From assembly GCA_937989665.1 (NCBI GenBank), contig CALKRN010000009.1, positions 1 to 64,000 on the forward strand: DNA of 64,000 nucleotides. The letters run 5' to 3'. Below are positions 30,795-38,368 of this stretch, one piece after another; within the stretch, counting starts at the first letter, position 1, and every line of letters begins with the position of its first letter. The position numbers and the translations under genes are program-made. This stretch comes from an uncultured Desulfomicrobiaceae bacterium (GTDB lineage: Bacteria > Desulfobacterota > Desulfovibrionia > Desulfovibrionales > Desulfomicrobiaceae). Under the pieces are notes generated by a model. The model was not told where the DNA came from. It ran no database searches and worked only from the letters and a program-made list of their open reading frames with translations.

Positions 30795-31115
30795 GGGAAC
30801 CTCCGATGCGAAATACGGTCTGTGTAGCGGCATGCGGAGGACGTGTCGAGACGGTGCAGCGCAGCGCTTCTGGCCCATGGCGGGGGTCTTGGGGAGGCAA
30901 TCGCCACCACTGTTTTTTGGGAAGGCAGGGCGAGGATGTCGCTAGGCCTTTCCTCCTTCGGAATACCAGCCTCTTGATTGAGCCGGGGCAAAACCTGCCG
31001 CAAGGGGATAAATCTTCTCTATTTTTCCTATAAATTCAAAGAATTTTCTTTTGGCCGCTTCCTTGCATGTCCTCCGTCAAACGGCGGATTTTGCCGAACC
31101 AAGGGAGGGAAGACC
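30795..31115. other. Divergent intergenic region upstream of flgN
   Basis: No gene is visible. It contains an AT-rich tract (about 31010-31050) and the sigma-54-type promoter at 31052-31067 for the flgN-flgK-flgL operon. The 5' end of the thioesterase gene lies on the other side. Confidence 0.6.
31052..31067 (+). promoter_or_regulatory. Sigma-54 promoter of the flgN-flgK-flgL operon
   Basis: TGGCCGCTTCCTTGCA has the TGGC and TTGCA boxes of the -24/-12 consensus with GG-N10-GC spacing. Transcription would start near 31078, and the flgN-like ATG is at 31116. The AT-rich DNA just upstream would favour bending by IHF. Confidence 0.7.
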
Positions 31116-31589
31116 ATGGAACGGCTCGTGGTGGAGAGTATTGCTCGACAGGCCAAAGGCGCACAGCTCCTCGCCATGCTCCTGGAAGAAGAGCATCGCT
31201 TGCTGCGTGCGGGCAATCCCCAAGCCATTGCTGGAGTAGAGCTGATGGTCCAGGAACTCGTGCGGCAGTTGGCGGCAGAGCGTGCCTTGACCCGCCGTCT
31301 CTTGGGGAGCCTTGGTGTGGAACGGGTGGCGGAGCTTTTACCATGTTTGGAAGAATCTTCGCGCCAGGCTTGCCAGCAGTGGATGGCGGTTTTGGAAGCA
31401 AGCGAGCAGCACAGTGCGCGCCAGAGCATGATTAACATGGACCTCGCGGAGGCCCTGCTCCAGCAAACCCGCGGGCTTTTGGCCCGCATCCACCAGGACG
31501 TCCTGCCGCGTCAGTCCCATGTCTATACCGCCCGAGGGGTGTGGCAGCGGCAGGCATCTGAGGCCACTCTTGTGCGGGGGAGGCTCTAG
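31116..31589 (+). CDS. flgN: FlgN-type flagellar export chaperone
   Basis: A 157-residue, almost wholly helical protein directly upstream of flgK. Segments such as GAQLLAMLLEEEHRLLRAGN, GVELMVQELVRQLAAERALT and MNMDLAEALLQQTRGLLARI-like repeats match the FlgN coiled-coil pattern. FlgN binds the C-termini of FlgK and FlgL and escorts them to the export gate. The start at 31116 follows AAGGGAGG. The stop abuts the flgK ATG (TAGATG). The family call relies on helical pattern and context more than on strict motifs. Confidence 0.82.
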   Translation: MERLVVESIARQAKGAQLLAMLLEEEHRLLRAGNPQAIAGVELMVQELVRQLAAERALTRRLLGSLGVERVAELLPCLEESSRQACQQWMAVLEASEQHSARQSMINMDLAEALLQQTRGLLARIHQDVLPRQSHVYTARGVWQRQASEATLVRGRL

Positions 31590-35728: not shown

Positions 35729-36171
35729 CATCTCGTGTGGGCACTGTAGCCGTGGACCCGACCTCGGTCCTCATCTTTCCCCATGGGCTCATTGGCTTCG
35801 AGCGCTTGCGGGAGTTTGTGCTCGTGGACTTTAAGCCGGGCACACCGTTTCGCTATCTCCAGAGCATGGAGCGGCCCGAGGTTGGCTTTCTCGTCGCCGA
35901 CCCCTTCGCCTTTCTCAAAGAATACCGCATCCACGTGGGCAGGGCAGAGGAGCGGATCCTCAAGGTGCGTTCGGTACGGGAGGTGGCCGTGCTGGTGCTT
36001 GTCACGGTCCCTAAAGGCCGGCCCGAAGAGAGTACCTTGAATCTGCTCGGGCCTATTTGCCTCAATGTGCGGGAGCGCATTGGCCTGCAGGTTCCGCAGG
36101 CCGGCATGGAGCCGGCCCGGGTACTCTTGCGGGAATGCGGAGCGGAGCGGCGCGTCGCGTTAGCGGATTAG
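35701..36171 (+). CDS. fliW: Flagellar assembly factor FliW
   Basis: A 156-residue protein with [40 protein letters not shown] and [20 protein letters not shown], all FliW-specific. FliW binds CsrA and relieves its repression, and is itself sequestered by flagellin, tying flagellin synthesis to export. It overlaps csrA upstream and converges with flgM, sharing four bases at the stop codons. Confidence 0.95.
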
Positions 36172-36479: not shown

Positions 36480-36899
36480 CTAGAGCATCGTGGCATCCAC
36501 CTTTTCGTAGGTGATTTGCCACAGACGCTGTATGAAGTGGTCTTTTTCGCCGTTTGTTACTGCACGTGGTGTGCCACTTTCGTCTTTGCGGAGGATCTCG
36601 AGGTCTTCGCCGTCAGGAGGATACCGAAAGACGAGTCCTGGACCGAACTCTTTGTCGAGGGTTTGACGGATTTCCTCCACGATGGGGTTGGTGCTGGTGG
36701 AGCCCACGAGGTTATCCACAATCTCGCGTGCCACACGTTCCACGAGCAGGCGGCGTTTGGCCTCCTGGGAGATGGAGATGCTATCGGCGCTTTCCGTCTG
36801 GCGCATGAACCGTTGCAGCCGCGAGATCCGTCGGCCGGTATCCAGCTGCTGGTCGTAGGTGCGCAGAACGGTTTTGACGAGAAAGGGGCTAATGGTCAC
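36480..36899 (-). CDS. FlgM-associated protein (DVU0524-like), function unknown
   Basis: A 139-residue protein starting GTG (MTISPFLVKTVLRTYDQQLD) and continuing GRRISRLQRFMRQTESADSI and SISQEAKRRLLVERVAREIV, then a beta-rich C-terminus (FGPGLVFRYPPDGEDLEILR). It resembles the small family encoded next to flgM in Desulfovibrio; I recall it as DVU0524-like. The SISISQEAKRR stretch echoes the Ser-rich linker of FlgM-type proteins. AAGGAG precedes the start at seven bases. It is first in the sigma-28-preceded operon with flgM. Confidence 0.75.
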   Translation of the reverse strand: MTISPFLVKTVLRTYDQQLDTGRRISRLQRFMRQTESADSISISQEAKRRLLVERVAREIVDNLVGSTSTNPIVEEIRQTLDKEFGPGLVFRYPPDGEDLEILRKDESGTPRAVTNGEKDHFIQRLWQITYEKVDATML

Positions 36900-37096
36900 G
36901 GCATGGCTCCTTCTTGTCTCGCCGTATCGGCAGGTTGGAGCAAAACTTTAGCTCCCATCCCCAAAAAAACAAGTGTCCCGGGTCGGAAGGGCTTTTGGCC
37001 AAGGTAGTTGGAGTGGAGGGCTGCCCGCCGAGTGGTGTGTCGAAGACCATGGACCATGCCGTAGTGGTCTTTGGCCCGGAGAACGCACCAGTCCAC
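36896..37096 (-). CDS. Possible small protein upstream of the FlgM-associated gene
   Basis: A 66-codon frame (GTG start) whose TGA overlaps the GTG of the next gene (GTGA), a pattern used by true operon partners here. The product reads VDWCVLRAKDHYGMVHGLRH, then SNYLGQKPFRPGTLVFLGMG and AKVLLQPADTARQEGAMP. The frame is open without a start as far as 37157. There is no clear ribosome site and no recognised family. The sigma-28-type promoter lies inside it, so it cannot be on the flgM transcript from that promoter. Confidence 0.3.
   Translation of the reverse strand: MDWCVLRAKDHYGMVHGLRHTTRRAALHSNYLGQKPFRPGTLVFLGMGAKVLLQPADTARQEGAMP
36924..36950 (-). promoter_or_regulatory. Sigma-28 (FliA) promoter of the flgM operon
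   Basis: On the minus strand TAAAGTTT (36950-36943) and GCCGATAC (36931-36924) are separated by exactly 11 bases. This matches the E. coli sigma-28 consensus TAAAGTTT-N11-GCCGATAA at 15 of 16 positions. Transcription would begin near 36917, 18 bases before the GTG of the FlgM-associated gene. Confidence 0.88.
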
Positions 37097-37099
37097 GAG

Positions 37100-37160
37100 C
37101 CCGCGGCTTGAGGACGCAAGGCCCTGGACCTCAGGCCGCGGGTGCGCGTTGTTTTTTCCC
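37100..37160 (+). terminator. Long hairpin with T-run
   Basis: CCCGCGGC (37100-37107) and TGAGG (37109-37113) pair with CCTCA (37129-37133) and GCCGCGGG (37135-37142), with one T-G wobble. TGCGCGTTGTTTTTTCC follows. It reads as a plus-strand terminator, but no plus-strand gene lies just upstream: fliW ends at 36171. It may stop read-through or antisense RNA. Confidence 0.45.
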
Positions 37161-37231: not shown

Positions 37232-38368
37232 CTATCCCGCAAGTCGCGTGCGGATCTCGTGGTGGTGGACCACAATGCGCGAGACGTAGGTGACGGTTTC
37301 CTCGATGACGGGCAGGCGGCCATAGCGGGCGTAGATGGCGGCATCGGTGTCTGTTGTGCCAAGGCCGGCGTTGTAGCCTGCCGTGGCGGCGAGGATATTG
37401 CCGCCGCGGGCGCGCAGGTGGCGGGCCATCATGCGTACCATGGCGGGCACAGCAAAGCGCGGCAGGGTGCGTTGGTCGAAGTCGGCGAGAAAGGCGTCGT
37501 CTTCGGGATTACCAAGTACGCGGCCTTCGAAATTGGCTTCGAGATAGGCGCGGAAGTTGCGTGTGGCGGTGGCGGCTTCGCTTTGGAGCTGCTCTTGGCG
37601 TTTCCAGAGGTCAGTCCAGGTCTTGGCTTTGCCCGTGGCGTCGCCCCCGCTGAGCACGAGAGCGGTGAGTTCGCGCAAGGCTCGTTCGGGTCGGGCAAAG
37701 AGTTCGGGGTGGGCGCGGCGGTGCTGGCGGGCCTCGGCGCGCATGGTCTCGGCGCGCACGGCCTCCCCCTGCCATTGGATCTCGCGCAGGCCATCGACAC
37801 GGCGGGGGGCGTCGGCGCAGATCATGCCATACTCCTTGGCGGTGGTGCGGATAAATTGGCACATGCCCACAGCCAGGGAGGAGGAGATGGCAAATTCGAA
37901 GAAGAAGGATTCGGCGAGGATTTGGCCCATGAGCCAGGCAGGGTCCACAGGATAGACCTGAGCCTGGGCAAGGACAGCTGGTACCATGGCCTCGGCAGCG
38001 AGTCGGATGCGAAAGAGGAGGTCGATTTGGGAGAGGGGGCGCTTCCAGAGTGGGAGGTTGCCGGAGCCATAGGCCGCGGCCACAAAGGAGTAGGTCGCTT
38101 GGGTCAGGCGTTCTGGGTAGCCTGGGGCTTGGATTTCGGCGAGCAGGGCCTCGGGGTTGGGGCTTTGGATGATGCGGATGGCCGTGGATGGCGCGGGGAA
38201 AGGCAGAGCGGCCTCGGGAAAAAGCGCGGTGGCATTGTCCGCCTCGTCTCGTTCTCCTGATGGCGCAGGGTCCAGGGGCTCGCCGGTGGAGACGGTGGCG
38301 CAGGCCGTGGAGAGGTAGGGGAGGATGGCGGCAGCTACCATGGTTTTGAGGGAATCCCGTCGGTTCAT
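37232..38368 (-). CDS. SLT-type lytic transglycosylase-like lipoprotein
   Basis: A 378-residue protein. The N-terminus MNRRDSLKTMVAAAILPYLS and STAC carries an RR pair and a lipobox-like Cys. The lysozyme-like domain (about 140-350) shows WLMGQILAESFFFEFAISSS with the catalytic Glu, then LAVGMCQFIRTTAKEYGM and ILAATAGYNAGLGTTDTDA. Such enzymes cleave the MurNAc-GlcNAc bond in the periplasm. It lies near the flagellar genes, where FlgJ lacks a hydrolase domain, but a flagellar role is only a guess. Its start overlaps the DUF1992 gene stop. Confidence 0.82.
   Translation of the reverse strand: MNRRDSLKTMVAAAILPYLSTACATVSTGEPLDPAPSGERDEADNATALFPEAALPFPAPSTAIRIIQSPNPEALLAEIQAPGYPERLTQATYSFVAAAYGSGNLPLWKRPLSQIDLLFRIRLAAEAMVPAVLAQAQVYPVDPAWLMGQILAESFFFEFAISSSLAVGMCQFIRTTAKEYGMICADAPRRVDGLREIQWQGEAVRAETMRAEARQHRRAHPELFARPERALRELTALVLSGGDATGKAKTWTDLWKRQEQLQSEAATATRNFRAYLEANFEGRVLGNPEDDAFLADFDQRTLPRFAVPAMVRMMARHLRARGGNILAATAGYNAGLGTTDTDAAIYARYGRLPVIEETVTYVSRIVVHHHEIRTRLAG

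Follow-up and report, generated by a model that had tools for sequence, protein, structure and literature searches.

A conserved sigma-28-type promoter ahead of the DVU0524-family-flgM operon of a Desulfomicrobiaceae bacterium

Introduction

The anti-sigma factor FlgM sequesters the flagellar sigma factor FliA (sigma-28) until completion of the hook permits FlgM secretion (PMC5809477). In Salmonella and E. coli, flgM is preceded by a class 3 promoter of the FliA type, and in Salmonella it also has a class 2 promoter (PMC5809477). The flgM gene of Campylobacter jejuni has its own FliA promoter, lies downstream of flgI-flgJ, is co-transcribed and receives RpoN read-through (PMC11187230). With sigma-28 feedback on flgM known in Salmonella and Campylobacter, a promoter of this kind is in itself ordinary.

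The DNA analysed here (the window) is a stretch of 64,000 nucleotides from an uncultured Desulfomicrobiaceae bacterium. As in Salmonella and E. coli, its flgM stands behind a FliA-type promoter of near-identical consensus, which would place the anti-sigma factor under the control of sigma-28 itself; as in C. jejuni, flgM would have its own FliA promoter. The added interest of the locus, beyond an ordinary promoter, lies in the unnamed operon partner of flgM.

Promoter sequence and operon layout

The features of the locus are collected in Table 1. On direct reading of the minus strand, the promoter agreed with the E. coli FliA consensus TAAAGTTT-N11-GCCGATAA at 15/16 positions, the sole mismatch being the final base. 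An earlier note on this DNA had described the same boxes, the 11-base spacer and this degree of match, all of which were found to be correct when the sequence was reread. FliA promoters in general start transcription 6-9 nt past the -10 element. Counted from the -10 element, the GTG start (36899) is reached after 24 nt; the 18 bases given in the earlier note fit a predicted transcript start near 36917.

Table 1. Features of the DVU0524-family-flgM operon and its promoter (window coordinates)
Feature	Position	Strand	Remarks
-35 element TAAAGTTT	36943..36950	(-)	8/8 to FliA consensus
11-nt spacer TGCTCCAACCT	36932..36942	(-)	sequence not conserved
-10 element GCCGATAC	36924..36931	(-)	7/8 to FliA consensus GCCGATAA
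Predicted transcript start region	36915..36918	(-)	about 6-9 nt past the -10 element
Shine-Dalgarno AAGGAG	36907..36912	(-)	read from sequence; 7 nt ahead of GTG
DVU0524-family gene, 139 aa, GTG start	36480..36899	(-)	first operon gene; NF041863, 90.1 bits
flgM, anti-sigma-28 factor, 100 aa	36168..36470	(-)	second operon gene; PF04316, TIGR03824

The two genes of the operon are separated by a 9-nt gap. The second scored above both curated FlgM cut-offs (PF04316, 54.4 bits against 25; TIGR03824, 43.9 against 40.75), and this family membership predicts a secreted, FliA-inhibiting product. The genes flgK, flgL, csrA and fliW are on the opposite strand and run toward flgM; therefore, the operon is separate from the flg structural operon, convergent to it and not read with the flg genes. 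The convergent genes flgM and fliW share 4 bases (36168-36171), the final flgM codon falling within the 3' end of fliW.

Window and genome searches

Within the 64-kb window, the site was the single match at up to 3 mismatches (0.25 expected). The search was extended to the 2.13-Mb assembly, where the pattern TAAAGTTT-N11-GCCGATAM gave 3 exact sites and 1 further site with 2 mismatches, against 0 sites for the reversed pattern at up to 2 mismatches. A pattern with a 12-nt spacer gave no match in the whole genome at the same threshold. At exactly 3 mismatches, 7 sites were found in the genome and 7 in the control; because these weaker sites were no commoner than in the control, the strong sites (up to 2 mismatches) stand clear of background.

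The four strong sites head the DVU0524-flgM operon, flaG (PF03646, with the site 41 nt ahead of its start), a lipoprotein-flgO operon and a flagellin gene, all of them flagellar late genes. A genome search for the motif at flagellin genes had been proposed earlier, and it was indeed shared by a flagellin gene (contig C8, in a slightly weaker form) and by flaG. The genome also encodes FliA (contig C6; FliA_WhiG 237 bits against a cut-off of 189.6 bits).

The lipoprotein locus (L001, G000:C2:80705-83731) has a 15/16 sigma-28-type site ahead of the lipoprotein gene, which is followed by a single gene of the FlgO plus peptidoglycan-binding type, and a second, divergent FlgO-domain gene is adjacent. 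This arrangement suggests an outer-membrane flagellar accessory operon under predicted sigma-28 control. Two near-identical flagellin genes are present at separate loci (L003, G000:C23; L004, G000:C8), and a sigma-28 site was recognisable at the C8 copy only. In the same-strand DNA upstream of the C23 copy, which lies divergently to flaG, no sigma-28 site was seen on inspection by eye.

Conservation of the promoter and of gene order

Orthologs of the 139-aa protein were found in 48 of 61 genomes of the genus, family and order. The order-level set comprised 46 loci, two of which (L021 and L056) were without upstream DNA, leaving 44 valid loci. The motif was present in 44/44 of these orthologous operons (12-16 of 16 positions, 20-50 nt before the start), a count that overstates the statistical strength since the genomes are related and not independent trials. 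Shuffles of the same upstream DNA averaged about 9-10 of 16, and most of the 44 loci exceeded the maximum of their own shuffles; L036 (12/16) does not. Reversed-consensus controls gave none among the order-level orthologs.

The spacer was 11 nt long in 35/44 orthologs and 12 nt in 9/44, and its sequence varied, while T-A-A-A-G of the -35 element and C-C-G of the -10 element were near-invariant. The most variable promoter position was the last base of the -10 element. In two same-genus relatives the boxes and the ribosome site were kept, the distal upstream sequence was unrelated and the upstream gene was different. Across related loci, the boxes persist while spacing and neighbours differ.

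Outside the order but within the phylum, 35/40 DVU0524-family loci reached at least 12/16 in the 80 nt examined and 5/40 scored lower; on these 40 loci the reversed and the complemented consensus each gave 0 and a consensus with swapped boxes gave 6/40. As a positive control, the flaG genes of relatives carried the motif in 23/27 cases (reversed, 0).

The gene next after the DVU0524-family gene was flgM at 43/46 order-level and 33/40 phylum-level loci. In a part of family f3 that is without the DVU0524 gene, flgM was found in a flgJ-flgM-flgN-like order, with a 13-14/16 site just upstream of flgM in 3 of the 5 genomes examined. At loci L071, L072, L075 and L076, from some families of the order without the DVU0524 gene, flgM is located between flgJ-like and flgN-like genes. 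Judging from these families, gain of the DVU0524 gene may have been coupled to relocation of flgM.

Feedback on FliA and the search for an earlier source of FlgM

From this promoter, FliA would transcribe the DVU0524-family gene and then flgM, so that free FliA would make its own inhibitor. FlgM would be replenished as the growing flagellum secretes it, and late-gene output would be held steady. Such a negative FliA-FlgM loop would follow from the established biology of FlgM (PMC5809477).

Two observations suggest that transcription of flgM may be wholly or mainly sigma-28-dependent here: its operon stands apart from the flg genes, and scans by consensus alone supported neither a sigma-54 nor a sigma-70 promoter upstream. 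The alternative is dual control, in which FlgM would already be made before the hook is finished, either from an early sigma-54 or sigma-70 promoter or by read-through from the transglycosylase gene, with the sigma-28 promoter as a late add-on. We take this possibility seriously but consider it somewhat doubtful. It has precedents in the class 2/class 3 control of Salmonella (PMC5809477) and in C. jejuni (PMC11187230), and 90 nt before flgM there is a sigma-54-like sequence that has 1 mismatch to the consensus. The number of sigma-54-like sites is nevertheless that expected by chance (3 found, 3.0 expected), the position of this one is kept within the genus only, and no sigma-70-like site was found by consensus scan in the 381 nt examined. 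The lytic transglycosylase gene upstream (37232-38368) has the same direction as the operon, which would allow read-through; it is, however, 282 nt away with a weak terminator-like site between, and same-genus relatives have a different upstream neighbour.

The sigma-54-like sequence itself (TGGCACACCACGTGCA, 36561-36576, minus strand) lies within the first gene; it was rejected as an internal promoter for flgM on account of its chance frequency and lack of conservation past the genus. A sigma-70 promoter in the intergenic region was likewise rejected after the negative scan. Between the transglycosylase gene and the promoter there is a 14-bp GC-rich inverted repeat (CCCGCGGCTTGAGG / CCTCAGGCCGCGGG, 37100-37142) with no T-run, which is missing at the same place in same-genus relatives.

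The DVU0524-family protein

The 139-aa product of the first gene belongs to NCBIfam NF041863, 'DVU0524 family FlgM-associated protein', well above the cut-off of 40 bits, and its gene adjoins flgM as in the family definition. The NF041863 model spans the first 64 residues only and has no function assigned. Across the phylum, members are either full-length (about 135-146 aa) or short (about 68-100 aa, consisting of the N-terminal part alone). The 139-aa protein had no match in Pfam (neither PF04316 nor PF03646). No paper mentioning DVU0524 was found in the literature, nor was a description of a FlgM- or FlaG-like relationship or of a conserved sigma-28 promoter for this family.

By profile comparison, the family aligned with residues 1-59 of FlgM (score 38.7, probability 88%) and, through its own residues 74-138, with FlaG (score 33.8, probability 74%). 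Both values lay above those of all 60 column-shuffled controls and above those of the reversed profiles (about 10). When natural alignments made from the fetched loci were compared blind, the only ones to exceed 14, the family itself aside, were those of FlgM and FlaG (28-42); the FliS family was represented in this comparison by nat0_L163, nat46_L149, nat103_L161 and nat115_L159, which scored about 11.5-11.8. Searching in the other direction, the FlgM profile found 57 family domains above 8 bits and the FlaG profile 4 domain matches, each with 0 in reversed decoys. In Pfam scans, FlaG was matched by 5 of 37 members at E<=1 (best 3.6e-4) and FlgM by 4 of 36 order-level members (best E 0.12).

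Structural searches gave less: with the family profile, nothing among solved structures was found under E 0.07. The AlphaFold models were of low confidence (mean pLDDT 62) with no significant fold match; for a second model the top PDB match was HpFlaG (6jsx), at a non-significant E of 0.23 that serves as a hint only.

The N-terminal part matches the export-signal and 'D-x-V-x-[LI]-S' region of FlgM, and the C-terminal sigma-binding helices have no counterpart. It is quite likely that residues 1-59 are distantly related to FlgM, and we lean, with less assurance, toward a distant relationship of residues 74-138 to FlaG. The uncharacterised first gene of the operon looks like a FlgM/FlaG mosaic, which was less expected than the promoter. 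Full anti-sigma activity is not predicted, because the later sigma-binding helices of FlgM are unmatched. The protein was not accepted as a FlgM, since it falls below the PF04316 cut-off, its similarity over residues 1-59 is distant and these helices are missing; nor was it accepted as a FlaG, as it falls below the PF03646 cut-off.

A possible joint action of the associated gene with FlgM, raised in the earlier note, gains indirect support from the constant linkage of the two genes and from the weak resemblance of the protein to FlgM and FlaG. In C. jejuni, FlaG is a secreted competitor of FliS at FlhA (PMC12445086), and for this reason our leading guess for the DVU0524-family protein is an accessory factor that is made late and may be exported. 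Its probable site of action would be the export gate or FlgM/FliA, an assignment made at lower confidence than those above. In its fullest and frankly speculative form, this reading has a fused FlgM-N/FlaG-C regulator, co-produced with FlgM by sigma-28, coupling the FliA-FlgM switch with the export gate: at FlhA its FlaG-like part would compete with flagellin delivery, and its FlgM-like part would be exported or touch FliA, while flgM would be purely sigma-28-driven and FlgM would be a homeostat, not a pre-loaded checkpoint.

Alternatively, the associated protein could be an export chaperone of the FlgN/FliS type for FlgM or the hook-filament junction proteins, and no relative of FlgM or FlaG. 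In other bacteria flgN occupies the place beside flgM, and the protein is small, mostly helical by prediction and encoded beside flgM. We consider this unlikely, given that the genome has a separate flgN (30978-31589, PF05130), on which ground the associated gene was rejected as FlgN, and that FliS and the other natural family profiles scored at most 14 against the family, compared with 38.7 for FlgM and 33.8 for FlaG.

Discussion

The site is very probably a functional sigma-28 promoter of the two-gene DVU0524-family-flgM operon, from which transcription and feedback would follow as described above. The earlier proposal that such a promoter drives both genes is supported by the motif, its position, the ribosome site, the presence of fliA, the sites at other late genes and conservation at 44/44 order-level and 35/40 phylum-level loci. 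A chance match within an AT-rich intergenic patch is computationally refuted by the window and genome searches, the 3-mismatch control and phylum-level conservation: although a 3-mismatch search matched 24/100 shuffled windows, the real match has no mismatch to the searched pattern, is kept in 44/44 orthologs and has flagellar genes at all four strong genomic sites.

Throughout the phylum, the gene for the anti-sigma-28 factor and the unnamed gene linked to it would be served by one conserved sigma-28 promoter. The similarities of the DVU0524-family protein are the first sequence-based, testable hint about what this family may be, namely FlgM-like and FlaG-like segments in a protein predicted to be expressed with the late flagellar genes. 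With FlaG (PF03646) it has in common a C-terminal stretch of 65 residues that aligns by profile, but it falls below the Pfam threshold, and a true flaG exists elsewhere in the genome.

Compared with Salmonella, flgM here belongs to a separate operon that points away from the flg genes and begins with the DVU0524-family gene; no counterpart of the Salmonella class 2 promoter was supported, and the feedback predicted from the shared, conserved promoter would operate with no early promoter in evidence. In C. jejuni flgM follows flgI-flgJ, whereas here flgJ-flgN-flgK, with no flgM between them, occupy the other strand, and flgM shares a predicted sigma-28 promoter with its DVU0524-family partner.
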